This document shows positions 9,751 to 48,688 of a stretch of 64,000 nucleotides of DNA, in pieces (the stretch's first letter is position 1; every line of letters starts with the position of its first letter). The position numbers were made by a program, and so were the translations under genes. The notes under the pieces were generated by a model. That model made no database searches. It was given only the letters and a program-made list of their open reading frames with translations, and had not been told where the DNA came from. The DNA is from Bacteroidota bacterium (GTDB lineage Bacteria; Bacteroidota; Bacteroidia; Flavobacteriales_E; Vicingaceae). The DNA lies in the NCBI GenBank assembly GCA_016183805.1, contig JACPDX010000007.1, positions 1-64,000 of the forward strand. The letters are read 5' to 3'.

Positions 9751-11805
9751 ATGAAAATTAAAACAACACTTTTAGGTCTGACAGCCATAACGTTTATGAT
9801 AGGTTGCGGCGATAAAAAAGAAAAAATTGAAGAAACAAAAACAGATATTATTCCTGCGTTTGATTTAGCAAATATCGATTCGACAGCATTACCTTGTGAA
9901 GATTTCTATCAATATGCCATTGGTAATTGGCAAAAAAATAATCCGGTTCCTGCTACCGAAGGTCGTTGGGGAAGTTTTAATATTTTAAATGAAGCCAATG
10001 AGCTTAAGCTTAAATCAATTATTGAAGAGACTTCTGCTTCAAAAGCAGAAAAAAATACTCCAAAACAACAAGTGGGTGATTTTTATACTGCTGCTTTCGA
10101 TTCAACAAATGCCGATAAACTAGGAATATCGCCATTAAAACCTTTGTTAGAACAAATTAATAATGTTAGTGATGTTCAAAGTTTAGTGGAAACGATGGCG
10201 GTTTTAAAAGTAAAAGGTTCTGGTTCATTGTTTTCTTATTATGTGTATGTTGATGCAAGAAACAGTAACGAAAATATTTTTTATTTGGGACAAGGTGGTT
10301 ATGCTTTACCTGATAGAGATTACTATTTTCCGACAGATGATAGAGGCAAGAATATTTTAGCTGAATACGAAAAACACATTGCCGCATTATTTAAGTTAGC
10401 TGGCGAAACAGATGAAGTGGCGAATGCAAATGCAAAAAATACCTTAGCTATAGAAACACAATTGGCAAAAGCATCATTAACAAAACTAGAAAGAAGAGAC
10501 CCAGTTGCTACTTACAACAAAATGTCGGTGGAAGAAATACAAAAATTATGTACACTTTTCGATTGGAATAAATTTTTACAAGTAGCAAATGTTACTGGCG
10601 TAAAAGAAATGGTGGTTGATCAACCCAAATATTTCAGTACATTAAATAAAACCTTAAAACAATATCCTATCGACCAATGGAAAGTGTATTTAAAATTTCA
10701 GGCACTTAACGATTTTGCACCGTATTTAAGTAGCGATTTTGAGCAACAACATTTTGCTTTTTATTCTACTACTTTAAGAGGAGTTAAAGAAATGAAACCT
10801 CGTTGGAAAAGAGCCTTAGAAAATTCAAACAAATTTGTAGGGGAGCAAATTGGTAAATTGTTTGTAGAAAAATATTTTCCTGAAGAACAGAAAAAAAGAG
10901 TGTTGGGTTATATCCACAACATTGGTGAAGTATTTAAAGAAAGAGTCGTTAAACTAGATTGGATGAGTGATTCTACGAAAACTAAAGCATTGGATAAGTT
11001 GAGCAAATTCACTTACAAAATCGGTTATCCTGATAAATGGAAAGATTTTAGTTCAATTGAAATTGTGAAGGATAATTTTGTTCAAAATATGATGAATGCA
11101 AGAGCTTTTGAATATGCTGAAATGATGGCTAAAATTGGCAGTCCTGTTGACAAAACAGAGTGGGGAATGACACCACAAACCATCAACGCCTATTACAACC
11201 CAACGATGAACGAAATTGTATTTCCGGCAGCTATTTTACAGCCACCGTTTTTTAATCCTGATGCTGACGATGCTGTTAATTATGGTGGAATAGGCGGAGT
11301 TATTGGTCATGAATTTTCTCACGGATTCGATGACCAAGGTAGTCAATTTGATGGCGATGGTAATCTAAAAAACTGGTGGAGCGATGAAGATTTATCCAAC
11401 TTTAAACACCTTACAGGCAAATTGGTTGACCAGTTTAATGGATTTCATGTTATTGACCAAACGTATGTAAACGGTGAGTTGACCTTAGGTGAAAATATTG
11501 CAGATTTAGCAGGAATAACGCTTTCTTACTACGCTTTACTTAAATCTTACGAAGGAAAAGAAGCACCAAAACCGATTGATGGATTTACTTATCAACAACG
11601 TTTCTTTTTAGGTTGGGCACAGGTTTGGGCATCAAACATTAAAGATGAAGAAGCTGTTCGTTTAGCTAATGTCGATCCACATTCTCCAACAAAATACCGA
11701 GTGTTGGGTCCATTGACCAACTTAGTAGAATTTGATGAAGCTTTTGGTTGTAAATCAGGCAATAAAATGGTTGCAGCAGATAGTTTGAGGGTTAAAATTT
11801 GGTAA
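9751..11805 (+). CDS. M13 family zinc metallopeptidase lipoprotein (neprilysin/PepO-like)
   Basis: 684 residues. The signal peptide has a lipobox (TFMIGCGDKK, Cys about 19), so the protein is probably anchored to a membrane facing the periplasm or cell exterior. The N-terminal M13 domain begins PCEDFYQYAIGNWQKNNPVP. The catalytic domain carries NAYYNPTMNEIVFPAAILQP, the zinc motif VIGHEFSHGFDDQG (HExxH, near 11300-11340) and the third ligand region GELTLGENIADLAG (ExxxD, near 11473-11514). All catalytic residues are present. It hydrolyses oligopeptides; the physiological substrate is unknown. Monocistronic; followed by a long palindromic repeat. Confidence 0.95.
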   Translation: MKIKTTLLGLTAITFMIGCGDKKEKIEETKTDIIPAFDLANIDSTALPCEDFYQYAIGNWQKNNPVPATEGRWGSFNILNEANELKLKSIIEETSASKAEKNTPKQQVGDFYTAAFDSTNADKLGISPLKPLLEQINNVSDVQSLVETMAVLKVKGSGSLFSYYVYVDARNSNENIFYLGQGGYALPDRDYYFPTDDRGKNILAEYEKHIAALFKLAGETDEVANANAKNTLAIETQLAKASLTKLERRDPVATYNKMSVEEIQKLCTLFDWNKFLQVANVTGVKEMVVDQPKYFSTLNKTLKQYPIDQWKVYLKFQALNDFAPYLSSDFEQQHFAFYSTTLRGVKEMKPRWKRALENSNKFVGEQIGKLFVEKYFPEEQKKRVLGYIHNIGEVFKERVVKLDWMSDSTKTKALDKLSKFTYKIGYPDKWKDFSSIEIVKDNFVQNMMNARAFEYAEMMAKIGSPVDKTEWGMTPQTINAYYNPTMNEIVFPAAILQPPFFNPDADDAVNYGGIGGVIGHEFSHGFDDQGSQFDGDGNLKNWWSDEDLSNFKHLTGKLVDQFNGFHVIDQTYVNGELTLGENIADLAGITLSYYALLKSYEGKEAPKPIDGFTYQQRFFLGWAQVWASNIKDEEAVRLANVDPHSPTKYRVLGPLTNLVEFDEAFGCKSGNKMVAADSLRVKIW

Positions 11806-37592: not shown

Positions 37593-38312
37593 AATCTCTT
37601 CAATCATTCCGTCAATAGAATGGTTTTCTGCTGTTGCATCAATGTCTAAAAATCTTTTTTGAGCTTCTGCAGTTGTCGAAGGGCCTATGGAGACTTTATG
37701 AATGTTGCTAAGCTTAATTTTGTGTTTACGAATTAAATTCATAAAGTTGTTTACCGTAGAACCACTGGTAAAGGTAATCACATTTATCGGAGTGTTTAAT
37801 ACTTCTTCAATTTCTTCTTTGGTATAATCAACGGGTGTGTTATCGTAAGTATCTACAACAGTAACTTTTACTTCTTTCTGTTTTAAGATATCTATAATAG
37901 TATCGTTCGAAATTTTTGATCGTGGAATTAATATTTTTTCGTTTTTCTTTACAGGAATTTCTTTTGCCAGTTTCTGAGCAGTTGCTGCCGAAGGAATAAA
38001 ATCAACTTTTAAACCCAATTCTTCAATCGATGCTTTGGTTTGAGAACCCACAGCTGCAATTTTGGATGTTACTTTAGTATAGTGAATAACTTCGAAAAAA
38101 CATTTTACGGCAATGCCGCTGGTAAAAATTATCCAATCAAATTCATTTTTTGAAAAAGTTGTTTTTAAAAGCTCTTGATTAATGGGTTTTAATTCAATGA
38201 GTGGAAAAATAACAGGAGTTGCACCTAATTTGGTTAATTTTTCGGCAAAATCATTACTTTGTTCAATGGGTCGAGGTATTAAAACCGTAACATTATTTAG
38301 TGGGAATTTCAC
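37575..38312 (-). CDS. hemD: uroporphyrinogen-III synthase
   Basis: 245 residues. Cyclises hydroxymethylbilane to uroporphyrinogen III. The sequence is divergent, as usual, but the two-domain pattern is visible: VLIPRPIEQSNDFAEKLTKLGATPVIFPLIEL at the start, DWIIFTSGIAVKCFFEVI (about 86-103), ILIPRSKISNDTIID, VITFTSGSTVNNFMNLI (about 177-193) and VSIGPSTTAEAQKR. Overlaps the upstream hemA-hemC fusion by 20 bases on the same strand, so translation is likely coupled. Converges with the OmpA-type gene with an 18-base overlap. Confidence 0.9.
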   Translation of the reverse strand: MKFPLNNVTVLIPRPIEQSNDFAEKLTKLGATPVIFPLIELKPINQELLKTTFSKNEFDWIIFTSGIAVKCFFEVIHYTKVTSKIAAVGSQTKASIEELGLKVDFIPSAATAQKLAKEIPVKKNEKILIPRSKISNDTIIDILKQKEVKVTVVDTYDNTPVDYTKEEIEEVLNTPINVITFTSGSTVNNFMNLIRKHKIKLSNIHKVSIGPSTTAEAQKRFLDIDATAENHSIDGMIEEILKIYA

Positions 38313-40482
38313 TCAGTTGCTCCTTTTTTTTTAAATCGATTTCTTTTTTTAACTCAAGTGCTAAATTTCTTGCCAGTTCTCTTCTATCTTCAACTTTACC
38401 TTTAATGGTTTTTCTCGAAAAATATTCTCCACTTTCAGAAGCAAAAACACCCTGTATTTCTATGTCATCATTTTTTACCGTTGCAAAAGCAGCAATAGGT
38501 AAATTGCATCCCCCACCCAAAGCAATTAAAAAAGCTCTTTCGGCATCTGCAGCATGTTTTGTAGGTTCGTGACGTAGTTTTTTTACCAAATCTAAAACAT
38601 GACCTTCTTTATCGATGGTTTCTAATCCTAAAATACCTTGACCAACAGCAGGTAACATTACATCAATGTCTAATATTTCTGTGGCATAATCAATCATGTT
38701 TAATCTTTTTAATCCGGCGGCAGCCAAAATAATAGCATCGTATTCGCCGGCTTCCATTTTATGGATTCGCCCATCAACATTGCCTTGTATAAATTTGTAG
38801 TTTAAATCGGGTCTCAGTTGTTTTAGTTGTGCCGAACGCCGTAAACTTCCTGTCCCTATGGTAGCCCCTTTGGGCAATTCCATTAATTTTTTACCCGATT
38901 TGGAGATAAACACATCCCTGTAATCTTCTCGTTCAGTTATTGGAATAACTCTAAGCCCGTTAACTTCTTCGGTTGGTATATCTTTGTAACTGTGTATGGC
39001 AATGTCAATTTCTCCGGCAAGCATCGAGCGTTGTAATGCTGAGGTAAACGCACCAACCACACTAATATCTCCGTCATCGCCACTTGTTCTAATAATTTTA
39101 GTTTCAAACTCGTAATCAGGTTGTATAGCTTTAAGTTGTTCTACCACCCAGTTGGTTTGAGTTATTGCTAATTTACTTCCTCTTGTTCCAACAATAATTT
39201 TACGTTTTGGAACAAAAATATCTACATTATTTACATCCAAAATTTGTTTGGCGGTATTAATAGGATTGTCTTTTAAATGAATGTTTTGAGCAATATTTTT
39301 GATCCCATCTATAGTTGGGCTCGATATTCTTCTTAATAACCGATGCGAAAAACGCATCAGTAATTCTTTTTGATGATCGGATAAATCACCCATTTTAGGG
39401 ATTAACCATTTTAATTCTTCGTTTCTCAACTCTTCCAGATTGCTCCAATAGGCTTCAATAACCGGTGCAACTCTCCTGTTTTTTAACCAAATCATAAACC
39501 AATCCAATTCCTGATTTACAATTTTACGTGCTTGCGGAATTTCGTCGTACCGTTTTAATAAACCATCATACGTTATTTTTTTGATGTCATCTAAATCGTA
39601 TAATGAAATGTTTTGGTGGGTTTTTAAATCCGGGTTAAAATTTCGTGGAACACCAAAATCTAAAAATAATTTGCTACCACCCATTTCTAAAGCAAAGTTT
39701 GCTCTGGGACATTTGCTTTCTGCCATGGTTTCTTCGTGGAGTAAATTAATTTCTCCTTGAGTTCCTCCAACAATAATATTAGCTTCTGCCAATGCACTGT
39801 GTATATTTTGCATTTCTACAGCCGTTCCATTCCATTCTTTGGCCATTTCTTGGGCTCTTTCCATGTCGTGGCTAGCTATATATAACTTTTTAATGGTAGC
39901 CCGGTCTAAAATAGTAGCCACTAAATTGGCCATGTTTCCGGTTCCAATCAATAGAAAAGTAGATTCTCCAAAGTTATAACCATGGTGCTCTATTAATTCA
40001 AATCCAACAGTAGCAAGTGAAGCAGAGAATTTACCGATATTGGTTTCTATCCTAACACGTTTTCCGGTATGAACCGCCTGACGGATTAATTCATCTAAAA
40101 CAGGTCCGATGGATTCTTCTTCTCTTCCTATTTCCAGTGCATCGCGTATCTGACCACTTATTTGATGTTCACCAACTGCTTGAGATTCTAGTCCTGCGGC
40201 TGTTGAGAATAAATTAATGATGGCAATTTCGCTGTCTGGTAAAATAGATAAATACTGACGGTAATTACCAAAAGTGTCAAAATAATCAACAATTTCGTTG
40301 TGGCTTTTGCCGTAAGCGTATATCGACAACCTGTTACAGGTAGAAATAATAAATACTTCTTTGTAATGTTTTTTTAAAACCTGTATAGCAGCTTTGGTTT
40401 GCTCCTTATTTAAAGCTAATCTTTCTCTTACTGCTATTGGGGCAAAACGGTGACTTAATTCTACTCCTACTATTTTATCCAT
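38293..40482 (-). CDS. hemA-hemC: glutamyl-tRNA reductase / hydroxymethylbilane synthase fusion
   Basis: 729 residues from ATG 40482; the frame is open 32 codons further upstream, but MDKIVGVELSHRFAPIAVRE is the family start. The N-terminal part (about 1-410) is glutamyl-tRNA reductase: catalytic Cys in ISTCNRLSIYAYG, QAVGEHQISGQIRDA, the NADPH fold FLLIGTGNMANLVA and a helical dimerisation tail. From about 425 it continues without an internal Met at the junction into hydroxymethylbilane synthase: KIIVGTRGSKLAITQTNWVV, AGEIDIAIHSYKDIPTE, GTGSLRRSAQLKQLRPDL and GGGCNLPIAAFA with the cofactor-binding Cys. One chain thus covers two non-consecutive steps of C5-pathway tetrapyrrole synthesis. Both sets of key residues are present. 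Confidence 0.93.
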   Translation of the reverse strand: MDKIVGVELSHRFAPIAVRERLALNKEQTKAAIQVLKKHYKEVFIISTCNRLSIYAYGKSHNEIVDYFDTFGNYRQYLSILPDSEIAIINLFSTAAGLESQAVGEHQISGQIRDALEIGREEESIGPVLDELIRQAVHTGKRVRIETNIGKFSASLATVGFELIEHHGYNFGESTFLLIGTGNMANLVATILDRATIKKLYIASHDMERAQEMAKEWNGTAVEMQNIHSALAEANIIVGGTQGEINLLHEETMAESKCPRANFALEMGGSKLFLDFGVPRNFNPDLKTHQNISLYDLDDIKKITYDGLLKRYDEIPQARKIVNQELDWFMIWLKNRRVAPVIEAYWSNLEELRNEELKWLIPKMGDLSDHQKELLMRFSHRLLRRISSPTIDGIKNIAQNIHLKDNPINTAKQILDVNNVDIFVPKRKIIVGTRGSKLAITQTNWVVEQLKAIQPDYEFETKIIRTSGDDGDISVVGAFTSALQRSMLAGEIDIAIHSYKDIPTEEVNGLRVIPITEREDYRDVFISKSGKKLMELPKGATIGTGSLRRSAQLKQLRPDLNYKFIQGNVDGRIHKMEAGEYDAIILAAAGLKRLNMIDYATEILDIDVMLPAVGQGILGLETIDKEGHVLDLVKKLRHEPTKHAADAERAFLIALGGGCNLPIAAFATVKNDDIEIQGVFASESGEYFSRKTIKGKVEDRRELARNLALELKKEIDLKKKEQLSEIPTK

Positions 40483-40714
40483 AAGTTTTTTTAAGGAATG
40501 CAAATTTACCAAAAATATACTCAAACTTAGCAGCTTTTCGGGAGAAAAGATGGTTAGAATGAGTAATGCCGCAACCAAAATGCTAGATATTTTCCGAAAT
40601 TCTATTTGGTAGCGGTATATGGCAGTTTTTGAAGATTAAACAGATTGAAAATTTGATTTGAAGTAGTTAAATAATTTAAATGTTATTATTTATACCATAA
40701 AATCGATTTTTATA

Positions 40715-41325: not shown

Positions 41326-43305
41326 ATGAAAACAATAGTAAAACTAGCTTTTGCCTTTATACTTGCTTCCTTTTTTGGCTGTGCACCAACGGGTAGTGAT
41401 AAAGACAAAGGAACATCAAAAGGAGCTCTGTCCGGTAATGCGGCCGAAAAAGTATATGTTGCACCGGGAGAATACGATTCTCATTACGCATTTATTTCCG
41501 GTGGATTTAGTGGGCAGTTGTCTGTTTATGGTTTGCCTTCAGGCAGATTGTTTAGAGTAATACCTGTCTTTTCTCAAGATCCTGAAAAAGGATATGGCTA
41601 CAATGAAGAAACCAAGCCAATGTTAAATACTTCTCACGGATTTATTCCTTGGGGAGATGCTCACCACCCGGATATTTCACAAACAAATGGAAGTTTAGAT
41701 GGCCGTTGGGTTTTTATTAACGAAAATAACACACCACGTATAGCACGTATTAGTTTAGAAACTTTTGAAACGGAAGAAATTATTGAAATCCCTAATTCAG
41801 CTGGAAATCATAGTTCTGCATACGTAACTGAAAATACTGAATATGTTGTTGCAGGTACTCGTTTTGCGGTTCCATTTCCTCAAAAAGATATGCCGATTAG
41901 TGAAATGAAAGGGAATTTTAAAGGAGCTCTTTCATTTTTAAAAGTTGATAAAGAGAGTGGGGATATGAATATTTCTTTTCAAATCAGTATGCCGGGATTT
42001 GATTATGATAAATGTCACCCGGGAAGGGATAAATCGCACGATTGGTTCTTCTTTACCACTTACAATACTGAGGAGGCAAATTCATTATTAGAAGTAAATG
42101 CATCACAAAACGATAAAGATTTTATTGCTGCAATTAACTGGAAAAAAATTGAAGAATATGTTGCAAATGGAGGTGGTACTAAACAACCTACAAATTATGC
42201 ACATAACAAATGGGATAATGATAAACATACTGCTACAAGTGTAATGGTAAAAGAAGTATTGGTTGTCGATCCTAAAGATGTTCCCGGAGCATTTTATTTC
42301 TTGCCTACTGCAAAATCACCTCATGGTTGTGATGTTGACCCAACAGGTGAATACATTATAGGTAGTGGTAAATTAGCTGCTGCAATGACTGTTCATTCAT
42401 TCTCAAAAATGATTAAAGCTATTGAGGCTAAAGCTTTTGATGGAGATGCTTACGGTATTCCAATCCTTAAATTTGAAGCCGTTAATTATGGCGTATTAGA
42501 ACAACCGGGATTAGGACCTCTTCATACTGAATTTGATTCAAGAGGTAATGCCTATACCACATTCTTTATTTCTTCTGAAGTTGTAAAATGGAATGTTAAA
42601 GACCTTAAAGTTATTGATAGACACCCTGTTTATTATTCTGTAGGTCACTTAATGATACCGGGTGGTAACTCTAGAACACCAGATGATAAGTATTTAATTG
42701 CAATGAACAAAATAACAAAAGACCGTTATTTACCAACTGGTCCGGAAGTTTGTCAGTCTGCTCAATTGTTTGATATTTCTGGTGATAAACTGGAATTATT
42801 ATTAGATTTTCCAACAATTGGAGAACCTCATTATGCAGCAGGTATTGCAGCAGATAAGATTTCTTCTAAATCAAAAAAAATATACAAATTAGAAGAAAAC
42901 AAACATCCTTACGCGGTGAAGAGTGAAGCCGAAACCAAAGTTGTTCGTAATGGTAATGAAGTACATGTTTACATGTCGATGATTCGTTCTCATTTCTCTC
43001 CTGATAATATTGAAGGTGTAAAAGTAGGTGATAAGGTCTTTTTCCATATTACTAATTTGGAACAAGATTATGATGTGCCACACGGTTTTGCTATGATTGG
43101 AGCTAATACTTCAGAAATGTTGATTATGCCGGGTAGAACTGCTACATCAATTTGGGAACCAAAACAAGTTGGTATTTGGCCTATGTACTGTACAGATTTC
43201 TGTTCTGCATTACATCAAGAAATGCAAGGTTATGTTAGAGTTTCTGCAAAAGGATCTAATACACCTTTAACATATACTCTTGATGGAGATATTCCGGGAC
43301 AATAA
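41326..43305 (+). CDS. nosZ: nitrous oxide reductase NosZ, clade II type
   Basis: Reduces N2O to N2 in the periplasm using the CuZ and CuA copper centres. 659 residues. The signal sequence is Sec/lipoprotein type (AFILASFFGCAPTGSD), not twin-arginine, which fits clade II. CuZ propeller landmarks: WGDAHHPDIS (about 109-118), AGNHSSAY, YDKCHPGRDKSHDW, KSPHGCDVDPTGEYI, GPLHTEFD, and GEPHYAAGI. The C-terminal cupredoxin CuA domain has HVYMSMIRSHFSP, DYDVPHGFAMIG and MYCTDFCSALHQEMQGYV (about 620-637), with both Cys, the His and the Met. Complete. Likely induced at low oxygen given the upstream Crp/Fnr-like box (inference). Confidence 0.97.
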   Translation: MKTIVKLAFAFILASFFGCAPTGSDKDKGTSKGALSGNAAEKVYVAPGEYDSHYAFISGGFSGQLSVYGLPSGRLFRVIPVFSQDPEKGYGYNEETKPMLNTSHGFIPWGDAHHPDISQTNGSLDGRWVFINENNTPRIARISLETFETEEIIEIPNSAGNHSSAYVTENTEYVVAGTRFAVPFPQKDMPISEMKGNFKGALSFLKVDKESGDMNISFQISMPGFDYDKCHPGRDKSHDWFFFTTYNTEEANSLLEVNASQNDKDFIAAINWKKIEEYVANGGGTKQPTNYAHNKWDNDKHTATSVMVKEVLVVDPKDVPGAFYFLPTAKSPHGCDVDPTGEYIIGSGKLAAAMTVHSFSKMIKAIEAKAFDGDAYGIPILKFEAVNYGVLEQPGLGPLHTEFDSRGNAYTTFFISSEVVKWNVKDLKVIDRHPVYYSVGHLMIPGGNSRTPDDKYLIAMNKITKDRYLPTGPEVCQSAQLFDISGDKLELLLDFPTIGEPHYAAGIAADKISSKSKKIYKLEENKHPYAVKSEAETKVVRNGNEVHVYMSMIRSHFSPDNIEGVKVGDKVFFHITNLEQDYDVPHGFAMIGANTSEMLIMPGRTATSIWEPKQVGIWPMYCTDFCSALHQEMQGYVRVSAKGSNTPLTYTLDGDIPGQ

Positions 43306-44051: not shown

Positions 44052-44082
44052 AAAACGAGCACATGTTACATGTGCTCGTTTT
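44052..44082. terminator. hairpin terminator between the nos membrane gene and nosL
   Basis: AAAACGAGCACATG (44052-44065), loop TTA, CATGTGCTCGTTTT (44069-44082). Perfect 14-bp stem with A-rich left and T-ended right flanks, so it could act in both directions. Only 34 bases before the nosL ATG. Confidence 0.8.
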
Positions 44083-44116: not shown

Positions 44117-44566
44117 ATGAAAAAAAATATCTTAGCAATATCAATTTGGCTTGGCTTGCTTGCTTCATTTACATCGTGTAGTATTGAGCCTAAAGAAATT
44201 AACTATGGTAATGACCATTGTTTTAATTGTGATATGACTGTTGTTGATAAAACACATGCAGCTCAATATGTTACAAAAAAGGGAAAAGCTTATGTTTTTG
44301 ATGCTGTTGAATGTTTGATGATGAAGCTTGAGAAAGAAAAAAATGATGAGCCCGAAGATTCCGAGTTCTGTTGCCACAAGCAAAAAGACATTCGGCGGCG
44401 GCTGATACTCGTATGATTCGCGGCCGCTCGCGACTTCCGCATACACGGCCGACGTGATGTTACCAAGACCGACTCCGGTGACCCAGAAATTGCAAATCAG
44501 TTCTTAAAAGAAAATGGTGGGGAAATATTTTCATGGGAACAATTAAAATCAAAATATTCCGACTAA
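44117..44566 (+). pseudogene. nosL: NosL copper-chaperone lipoprotein gene with its middle replaced by foreign DNA
   Basis: The 5' part (44117 to about 44347) reads a normal NosL: lipobox FTSCSIEPKEINYG, HCFNCDMTVVDKTHAAQYVT with the Cys-x2-Cys metal site, VFDAVECLMMKLEKEKND. The 3' part (about 44487-44566) reads EIANQFLKENGGEIFSWEQL and SKYSD before the stop, a normal NosL end, in the same frame. Between them lies a GC-rich stretch with an in-frame TGA at 44414-44416, so a product would stop after 99 residues. The missing middle normally carries the SPMG-type segment. The total of 150 codons equals what an intact NosL would need. See the separate entry for the foreign segment. NosL delivers copper to NosZ. 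Confidence 0.85.
44347..44487 (-). other. foreign GC-rich segment encoding an O-antigen ligase/polymerase fragment
   Basis: About 58% GC by hand count over 44350-44484 in surroundings near 30%. Read on the minus strand it is one uninterrupted frame with GVGLGNITSAVYAEVASG followed by YEYQPPPNVFLLVATELGIF, the typical NVFLLVxxELGIFGL signature of O-antigen ligase/Wzy_C-family membrane proteins, in the normal order. The frame runs into nosL antisense sequence at both ends, so it is a bare internal fragment without start or stop of its own. It is either an assembly chimera or an illegitimate insertion; codon use differs sharply from the host. Confidence 0.75.
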
Positions 44567-44567
44567 A

Positions 44568-45800
44568 ATGAGATTTTTTCTAATTCTATTTTTATTGGTT
44601 ACTATTTGCTTACAAGCAAACACAATTAAAGTATGTGAGTCGTGTAAAATAAAAACAATAAAAGAAGCTATTCTTTTGGCAAAAGATGGAGATACTGTTT
44701 CAGTAAAAAAAGGAATTTATAAAGAAACTAAAATCAATGTCGATAAATCAATTTACATTATCGGAGAAGATTATCCCACGCTAGATGGACAAAATAAAAC
44801 AGAAAGTATTTTTGCGGCAAAAGCAATTGATTTTGTTATTTCAGGTTTTATTTTTAAAAATGTAGGGCTGAGTTATACCAAAGAGATTGCAGCTATATAT
44901 GTTTCGAATAGTACAAATTTTAACATAAAAAATAATGTTTTAGAAGATGTTTTTTATGGCTTTATTATTCAAAGTTCCAACTTTGGTTTAATACAAAACA
45001 ATAAAATAACCGGTAAATCAATAAACGAAACAACTTCTGGTAATGGTATTCATGTATGGAAATGTAAAAATTTAAGAATTGAGCAAAATATTGTTAAAGG
45101 CATGAGAGATGGTGTTTATTTAGAATTTGTAAATAATAGCTTTATTTCTAATAATACCAGCCAAAATAATGTGAGGTATGGTTTACATTTTATGTTTTCA
45201 AATAACAATGAATATCATCACAATGAATTTAGAGAAAATGGTGCAGGAGTGGCTGTCATGTTTTCTAAATCTATAAAAATGCATCACAATACCTTTCATT
45301 TTAATTGGGGTGCAGCATCTTACGGTTTGCTTTTAAAAGAAATTAATGATGCTGAGATTTATGATAATATTTTTGAACAAAATACCATTGGAATAAACAT
45401 TGAAGGCTGTAATAGAATTAGTTACAAAAACAATCATTTTATCAGAAACGGTTGGGCATTAAAATTTAGGGGCGGGTGTTATAAAAACATATTCGAGTTC
45501 AATAACTTTGTGAGTAATGCCTTTGATTTATCTTACAATAGTAAGCTAAACGATAACAAATTTGAAGCAAATTATTGGAGCGATTATACAGGTTATGATT
45601 TGGATAAAAATGGGATAGGAGATGTAGCTTATCGCCCGGTAAAATTATTCTCATACATTGTAAATAATACTCCTGAGACTTTGATTTTGTTACGAAGTCT
45701 GTTCGTAGATATAATTAATTTTTCAGAAAAAGTATCGCCGGTTTTTACCCCCGACAATTTAATAGATGCAAAACCATTGATGAAACCTATAGAATTGTAA
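44568..45800 (+). CDS. nosD: NosD, nitrous oxide reductase maturation protein
   Basis: 410 residues. Signal peptide (FFLILFLLVTICLQANT). It is a right-handed beta-helix of PbH1/CASH repeats rich in Asn (FNIKNNVLEDVFYGFIIQSS, NEYHHNEFRENGAGVAVMFS, YKNNHFIRNGWALKFRGG) and ends with the NosD tail FEANYWSDYTGYDLDKNGIGD and YRPVKLFSYIV. Periplasmic; works with NosF and NosY to build the CuZ centre. It starts 1 base after the nosL stop, so nosL-D-F-Y form one unit. Confidence 0.95.
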   Translation: MRFFLILFLLVTICLQANTIKVCESCKIKTIKEAILLAKDGDTVSVKKGIYKETKINVDKSIYIIGEDYPTLDGQNKTESIFAAKAIDFVISGFIFKNVGLSYTKEIAAIYVSNSTNFNIKNNVLEDVFYGFIIQSSNFGLIQNNKITGKSINETTSGNGIHVWKCKNLRIEQNIVKGMRDGVYLEFVNNSFISNNTSQNNVRYGLHFMFSNNNEYHHNEFRENGAGVAVMFSKSIKMHHNTFHFNWGAASYGLLLKEINDAEIYDNIFEQNTIGINIEGCNRISYKNNHFIRNGWALKFRGGCYKNIFEFNNFVSNAFDLSYNSKLNDNKFEANYWSDYTGYDLDKNGIGDVAYRPVKLFSYIVNNTPETLILLRSLFVDIINFSEKVSPVFTPDNLIDAKPLMKPIEL

Positions 45801-45810
45801 ATAGTTTAAG

Positions 45811-46518
45811 ATGATAGAGATAAAAAACTTAACAAAAAAATTTGGTAAGCTAGTCGTTTTAGATGGCTTAGATTTAGACATAAAATCGGGTGGAATTTTT
45901 GCCGTTTTAGGACCCAATGGATCAGGAAAAACAACGCTAATAAAAAGCATTTTAGGAATGGTTATTCCGAATTCCGGAGAAATTACAATTGACAATATTT
46001 CAGTATTAAAACAGTGGGAGTATAGAAACGAAATTAATTATTTACCTCAAATTGCAAATTTTCCTGCAAATTTAACTGTGGTAGAATTAATAGAAATGGT
46101 TAAAAATTTACGGCCTAAAAAATCTAACGAAAATGAGTTAATCACACTTTTTGGCTTGACACCCTTTTTAAATCAAAAACTAGGAAACTTATCCGGCGGA
46201 ACTAAACAAAAAGTGAATATCATATTAACTTTTATGTTTGATAGCAATTTAATTATTTTAGATGAGCCAACAAATGGATTAGATCCTGTTGCATTAATTC
46301 ATTTAAAAGAAATCATAAAACAGGAAAAGGAAAAAGGCAAAACATTAATAATTACCACTCACATCATGGGTTTAGTAGAAGAAATCGCTGATGAGATTGT
46401 GTTTTTATTAGACGGCAAAATATATTTTAGAGGAAGTGTGGCTGATTTAAAAAATCAAACCAATCAAACCAATATTGAACATGCTATTGCTCACTTATTA
46501 ACTAAAGAAAATGTTTAA
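45811..46518 (+). CDS. nosF: NosF, ABC transporter ATPase
   Basis: 235 residues. Walker A GPNGSGKTTLIKS (about 34-46), signature LSGGTKQKVN (about 128-137), Walker B LIILDEPTNGLDP (about 148-160), H-loop TTHIMG. Energises NosFY-dependent CuZ assembly. It follows nosD by 10 bases and overlaps nosY by 8 bases. Confidence 0.95.
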   Translation: MIEIKNLTKKFGKLVVLDGLDLDIKSGGIFAVLGPNGSGKTTLIKSILGMVIPNSGEITIDNISVLKQWEYRNEINYLPQIANFPANLTVVELIEMVKNLRPKKSNENELITLFGLTPFLNQKLGNLSGGTKQKVNIILTFMFDSNLIILDEPTNGLDPVALIHLKEIIKQEKEKGKTLIITTHIMGLVEEIADEIVFLLDGKIYFRGSVADLKNQTNQTNIEHAIAHLLTKENV

Positions 46519-47293
46519 AATAATAAAATATAGTTTTTACGATTTAATGCGTAGCCGTTGGAGTTACGTATATTTTGCATTTTATTTTGCTTTAGGTTTT
46601 GTGTTATTATTTTTAAACAACGACATCAATAAAGCAGTTATTACTTTAATGAACATTATTATTGTTTTAACACCGTTGATAGGTACAATTTTTGGCGTAA
46701 TGTATTATTACAATTCTAAAGAATTTACCGAGTTACTTCTTGCTCAGCCCATAAAAAGAAATCGGATATTTTTAGGACAATATTTAGGAGTGTCATTTTC
46801 TTTAGCATTAAGTTTGGTATTAGGATTAGGAGTTCCTTTTGTAATTTATGGGCTATTTAACTCACCAGCTATTTTTGATTTTGTTTTATTACTGATTACC
46901 GGTACATTTCTAAATTTTATTTTTGTTGCATTGGCTTTTAATATTGCTTTATCTAATGAAAATCGAATTAAAGGATTTGGTTATGCAATTTTAATGTGGT
47001 TGTTTTTAGCGGTTGTTTACGATGGATTATTTTTAATATCATTGGTTATATTCAACGAATATCCATTGGATAAAATTTCATTATTTGCCACCATGTTTAA
47101 TCCTATTGATTTATCTCGAATATTAATTATACTTAAACTCGATATCTCAGCCTTACTTGGCTATACCGGTGCAGTATTTCAACAGTTTTTTGGTACTTTA
47201 TTAGGAATGATTATATCATTTGTAGTATTGTCTTTTTGGGTTATTTTGCCAGTTGGTAGAATTGCATTAAAAGCAAATAAAAAGGATTTTTAA
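46511..47293 (+). CDS. nosY: NosY, ABC transporter permease
   Basis: 260 residues with six hydrophobic helices (about 20-38, 45-70, 90-115, 125-148, 158-185 and 225-250) and the cytoplasmic segment YYYNSKEFTELLLAQPIKRNRIFLGQYLG typical of ABC-2 permeases of the NosY type. Partner of NosF; overlaps it by 8 bases. Last gene of the nos cluster, followed by a perfect bidirectional hairpin. Confidence 0.94.
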   Translation: MFKIIKYSFYDLMRSRWSYVYFAFYFALGFVLLFLNNDINKAVITLMNIIIVLTPLIGTIFGVMYYYNSKEFTELLLAQPIKRNRIFLGQYLGVSFSLALSLVLGLGVPFVIYGLFNSPAIFDFVLLLITGTFLNFIFVALAFNIALSNENRIKGFGYAILMWLFLAVVYDGLFLISLVIFNEYPLDKISLFATMFNPIDLSRILIILKLDISALLGYTGAVFQQFFGTLLGMIISFVVLSFWVILPVGRIALKANKKDF

Positions 47294-48442: not shown

Positions 48443-48688
48443 ATGAAAAAATTTATGATTTTACCAGTTGCTATGATAGCATTAATGGTAGTGGCTTGCG
48501 GACCAAGTCAAGAAGAAATTGCTGCACAAGAAAAAGCTGTTGCTGATTCAGTTGCTGCTTATGATGCACAAGTTGCTGCTGAAGCTGAGGCTGCTGCTGC
48601 CGCTGCTGCTGCTGAGGCTGCTGCTGCTGCTGAGGCTGCTGCTGCTGCTGAAGCTGCTGCTGCTACTGAAGCTGCTCCTGCAAAATAA
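48443..48688 (+). CDS. small Ala/Glu-rich lipoprotein
   Basis: 81 residues. Signal peptide with lipobox (IALMVVACGPSQEE, Cys about 19), then a helix-forming tail made almost only of Ala and Glu (pattern EAAAAA repeated about four times, about 50-75) encoded by GCT/GAG codon runs. It may form a single extended helix between membrane and cell wall, like Lpp-type spacers, but it lacks a terminal Lys attachment pattern beyond APAK. Convergent with the acetyl-CoA hydrolase gene, with a terminator between. Confidence 0.8.
   Translation: MKKFMILPVAMIALMVVACGPSQEEIAAQEKAVADSVAAYDAQVAAEAEAAAAAAAAEAAAAAEAAAAAEAAAATEAAPAK
48580..48680. repeat. GCT trinucleotide-rich microsatellite inside the lipoprotein gene
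   Basis: About 100 bases of GCT repeats interrupted by GAG/GAA and GCC codons. Slippage in units of three would change the length of the Ala/Glu helix without breaking the frame. Confidence 0.7.

Follow-up and report, generated by a model that had tools for sequence, protein, structure and literature searches.

The nosL gene in the stretch of Bacteroidota DNA analysed here (the first 64,000 nucleotides of contig JACPDX010000007.1, assembly GCA_016183805.1, family Vicingaceae; this whole stretch is hereafter the window) carries in its middle a foreign patch that reads on the opposite strand as part of an O-antigen ligase (Wzy) gene, and this patch is very probably not a biological feature but a local assembly error, the genome being a scaffolded metagenome bin. 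The patch is of foreign origin and has a fuzzy left junction, relatives possess an intact nosL, and similar assembly errors are found elsewhere in the same genome. The assembly presumably originates from a short-read metagenome, and the living organism can be expected to have an intact nosL. When copper is limited, nitrous-oxide reductase depends on NosL for its activity, and N2O builds up in a Paracoccus denitrificans strain from which nosL has been deleted (PMC6530538).

What remains of nosL

The gene occupies 44117-44566 (149 codons and a stop), its translation being interrupted by a single in-frame TGA at codon 100. As noticed in the first-pass annotation of this DNA, it begins and ends normally and in the same frame, reading MKKNILAISIW...CSIEPKEINYGNDHCFNCDM from its start at 44117 and ...PEIANQFLKENGGEIFSWEQLKSKYSD at its end at 44566. 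Ordinary NosL is represented by the first ~78 and the last ~28 codons, and the similarity to NosL is lost between them, at ~44351-44479. The segments of the assembled gene are as follows:

44117..44350, plus strand: 5' part of nosL, with lipoprotein signal and CFNCDM copper motif, up to ECLMMKLEKEKNDE (translation, alignment with relatives)
44327..44350, strand not assigned: left junction zone of 24 bases, reading LEKEKNDE (NosL) or, antisense, LIIFFFLK (Wzy) (column scoring)
44351..44479, minus strand: foreign core, part of a Wzy_C (O-antigen ligase) gene in antisense orientation, ~57% GC (Pfam PF04932, homologue searches)
44480..44491, strand not assigned: right junction zone, reading DPEI (NosL) or, antisense, NFWV (Wzy), the overlap being weakly supported
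44480..44566, plus strand: 3' part of nosL, which keeps the original frame up to the stop (aligns with the C-termini of relatives' NosL)

The N-terminal part is that of a genuine NosL, as the intact protein of the nearest relative with the gene (G020) is 68% identical over residues 1-75 (E = 6.9e-29), and the CXXCXM motif described for clade II NosL (PMC6530538) is present as CFNCDM. Alignment with relatives, a comparison proposed in the first-pass annotation, shows that those possessing the nos cluster retain an intact nosL, and that in the assembled gene alone the patch has removed the conserved SPMGA motif and introduced the TGA stop. Accordingly, the assembled gene resembles NosL (PF05573; PMC6530538) in its N-terminal part with the clade II CXXCXM motif and in its C-terminal tail, but differs in lacking the SPMGA-bearing middle and in having a stop codon. 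The NosL profile (PF05573) matches the in-frame chimera at residues 32-77 only (E = 0.002; 18.9 bits, the cut-off being 24), whereas the intact NosL of one relative is matched over residues 28-141 (E = 1.1e-16). No second copy of nosL was found in the host genome. Immediately upstream of the gene, at 44052-44082, an almost perfect inverted repeat (ACGAGCACATG...CATGTGCTCGT) with T after it probably serves as a terminator.

The annotation had also held that the length of nosL was preserved by the substitution, and this stands within limits: the spacing between the EC and GG residues is 69 residues in the assembled gene and 67-68 in seven relatives, so that the length is kept within one or two codons, exact equality not being provable.

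Origin of the patch

Within nosL the patch covers ~130-165 bases, its left bound lying at 44327/44353 and its right bound at 44479/44491. The GC-rich centre estimated by hand in the first reading is borne out by measurement (57.7% for 44347-44483 against 34.0% for the window). Composition was also compared across a sample of stretches amounting to ~1.6 Mb, or ~46% of the genome (3.47 Mb in all); in 120-base windows the patch ranks second among the outliers (z = -6.0), the sole stronger one being a 23S rRNA-like sequence.

On the minus strand the patch reads VTGVGLGNITSAVYAEVASGRESYEYQPPPNVFLLVATELGIFGLI, which matches the Pfam domain Wzy_C (PF04932) at profile positions 101-146 of 149 (E = 0.0015), as had been proposed from the letters alone. 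The score of 18.8 bits lies below the curated cut-off of 31.7 because the patch is a fragment of the domain, covering about one third of the profile. The peptide search that the annotation had recommended returned abundant homologues: among 380 sampled genomes of the phylum that includes a Candidatus Kerfeldbacteria genome, 46 matched the peptide (best match 51% over 53 aa, E = 1.8e-13). The homologues lie in complete Wzy proteins, to which the peptide is 41-51% identical. In the host phylum 375 genomes were searched, and the window itself gave the sole match, the other 374 having none. The sequence at the nosL site thus belongs to another organism, and its distribution makes a candidate-phyla-radiation bacterium of the Kerfeldbacteria phylum the probable donor. 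The likeness to Wzy_C extends to domain positions 101-146 and to whole Wzy proteins of that phylum, the difference being that the patch comprises only ~46-54 residues, without a start and without a surrounding gene. A viral origin was also considered, and no match was found. The host's own Wzy genes were rejected as a source; several Wzy_C genes are present, but the DNA of the patch is single-copy and its peptide is matched nowhere else in the genome.

The junctions

The edges of 44347 and 44487 given in the first-pass annotation have to be replaced by zones, because at 44327-44350 and at 44480-44491 the letters are compatible with either gene. In order to score these zones, the antisense reading of the flanks was compared with the columns of 21 Wzy homologues, antisense windows of host genes serving as the comparison. 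At the left flank the 8-residue window IIFFFLKL scores 9.8, a value reached by 0 of 3262 host antisense windows (here as at the right flank, such fractions derive from overlapping windows at several lengths and are not corrected probabilities). The similarity to Wzy therefore extends ~8 codons into sequence readable as NosL, which places the left junction within ~24 bases fitting both genes, and this dual-reading stretch is probably the shared sequence at which the misjoin arose. In the right zone, the NosL of one relative (G012) has NPEE, and the Wzy homologues L159, L160, L161 and L176 have W at the matching place.

State of the assembly

The host assembly, with a completeness of 95.9% and a contamination of 0.4%, contains in the sampled stretches 18 runs of N of 2-88 bases each, which indicates that contigs were joined at estimated gap sizes, presumably by means of paired reads. 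At least two of these gaps carry identical sequence on both sides (L097 near 781-838 and L118 near 10240-10249), and here gaps have been put in although the contigs overlap. Gaps with duplicated flanks have been described as local errors of IDBA-UD and CLC assemblies (PMC7111523).

Besides ribosomal RNA and the nosL patch, the top compositional outliers of the sample include one end of another contig, C12 (L087). This end (10025-10406) is a three-piece mosaic of a host M23 peptidase gene, a LAGLIDADG-like fragment and a fragment of a TIGR04372 glycosyltransferase. The peptidase gene, whose same-genus orthologues lie in frames of 572-592 aa, breaks off near 10050, and past the break the other strand encodes first the LAGLIDADG-like endonuclease, a label that interprets homologous frames and is not a profile match, and then the glycosyltransferase (E = 3.7e-13). 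Both foreign pieces have relatives in the Kerfeldbacteria phylum and are absent from the 46 host relatives searched. The host gene and the foreign piece overlap over ~26 bases (10025-10050) that can be read as both. This end of C12 is a second foreign misjoin, of the same kind as the left nosL junction; dual-reading stretches of ~24-26 bases at both places are what a misjoin through a short overlap is expected to leave. A further contig of 3594 bases, C71 (L152), has an unusual composition at several places and may represent contamination or a mobile element.

The N runs, the duplicated flanks and the C12 mosaic show that the assembly is scaffolded and holds other errors of this class. With the local assembly errors reported for metagenome-assembled genomes (Chen et al. 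2020, PMC7111523) the nosL case shares a wrong consensus in a scaffolded assembly that has N gaps with duplicated flanks. The nosL case differs in that the wrong sequence is a recognisable piece of a gene from another phylum, of matching length, and that it is known here from sequence alone.

How the patch may have arisen

We infer two steps taken by the assembler. The end of a contig within nosL was probably extended wrongly through ~20-24 bases shared by chance with the Wzy gene of a co-sampled candidate-phyla-radiation bacterium, and the mis-extended tip would then have been merged with the next contig, which paired reads had placed at the correct distance. A merge distance set by read pairs would explain why the length is kept within one or two codons, and the two steps together would account for the foreign origin, the near-equal length and a dual reading that is strong on the left and weak on the right. 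Bubble merging through two exact shared 20-mers was rejected as the sole mechanism, since two correctly spaced matches in unrelated genes are extremely unlikely, and one k-mer mis-extension followed by a distance-guided merge is preferred for this reason.

Several observations weigh against an assembly error of this kind. It is very unlikely that two exact shared 20-mers would occur by chance at the right spacing, and a looser second join is consequently needed. The overlap at the right flank is weak, the fraction of host windows being ~0.01-0.04 at 6-7 residues and not significant at 1-5. The exact donor sequence did not turn up in the collections of genomes searched, and the shared stretches are thus read at the protein level. 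A natural insertion of an endonuclease might be among the C12 pieces, though it would leave unexplained why the host gene breaks off, and composition revealed no other internal foreign patch in the sample, the C12 misjoin sitting at a contig end.

Alternative explanations

It is improbable that in a natural population candidate-phyla-radiation DNA really took the place of the middle of nosL, with its length preserved, through short-patch double illegitimate recombination (SPDIR). According to a review citing Harms et al. 2016 (PMC7192050), SPDIR occurs at low frequency in transformable bacteria; a few resident bases are exchanged for foreign ones in the absence of long homology, possibly with microhomology at the ends. 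The nosL substitution, both ends of which may carry microhomology (at the level of protein compatibility, as the exact donor was not found), would fit such a route, and the donor phylum is a plausible neighbour of the host. Such a route offers, however, no reason for the preserved length, leaves unexplained why the assembly plainly contains another misjoin to this foreign phylum, and would pair intact nosZ, nosD, nosF and nosY with a broken chaperone that cluster-bearing relatives keep. Compared with the SPDIR events as cited in PMC7192050 (Harms et al. 2016), the nosL patch differs in its foreign-phylum donor, its preserved length and the misjoin-bearing assembly, and in being known from assembled sequence only. 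There is only a slight chance of an ordinary insertion or of a rare strain variant turned consensus. A minority strain can supply the consensus of a metagenome bin, but the native middle of nosL is absent and not displaced, and the nearly unchanged spacing (69 against 67-68 residues) likewise indicates a replacement and not an insertion. The preference of the first-pass annotation for a chimera or foreign gap filling over an insertion is in this respect supported, given the nearly unchanged spacing, the intact nosL of relatives and the other assembly errors.

Antisense open frames are common, and a native GC-rich stretch of nosL with a chance antisense frame might be imagined, in which case a sister NosL with PEDSEFCCHKQK... 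at the patch site would be expected; this is refuted, and deserves practically no credence, in view of the Pfam match (E = 0.0015), the homologues in 46 genomes (best E = 1.8e-13) and the complete loss of NosL similarity in the patch. The chance that vector or laboratory sequence is involved is just as negligible, as the Wzy reading continues through the NotI site (GCGGCCGC) in the middle of the patch that could suggest it, with conserved residues on either side, and plasmid records match over at most 31 bases.

The nos cluster and its surroundings

The neighbouring genes of the cluster are intact:

41326..43305, plus strand: nosZ, Sec-dependent (clade II) nitrous-oxide reductase (NCBIfam TIGR04246, E = 1.8e-276)
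44568..45800, plus strand: nosD (NCBIfam TIGR04247, E = 2.6e-122)
45811..47293, plus strand: nosF-like ATPase and nosY-like permease, intact open frames (open frames, gene order)

The last two we take to be nosF-like and nosY-like from general knowledge of nos operons. Farther upstream on the minus strand (38293-40578), glutamyl-tRNA reductase (HemA) and hydroxymethylbilane synthase (HemC), names that come from sequence recognition and not from a profile search, seem to be fused in one frame of 761 residues. Their junction lies within a single frame of 727-741 residues in all nine family relatives searched (9/9), and in farther relatives the match is mostly limited to the HemC side. Downstream of the cluster, a small lipoprotein-like frame at 48443-48688 on the plus strand ends in a long C-terminal Ala/Glu repeat (AAEAAAAAEAA) and forms the top GC peak of the window.

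Implications

The value of this case lies in the caution it teaches, as the ordinary quality checks (95.9% completeness, 0.4% contamination) do not catch a foreign patch that matches the replaced stretch in length and stays in frame at its two ends, and an annotator would be led to report a nosL pseudogene and possibly a denitrifier releasing nitrous oxide. If the patch were real, it would represent a rare natural short-patch recombination with DNA of another phylum, and copper delivery to nitrous-oxide reductase would be knocked out in a natural population. Since the patch is almost certainly an assembly mistake, the nosL of this organism should not be interpreted as broken.
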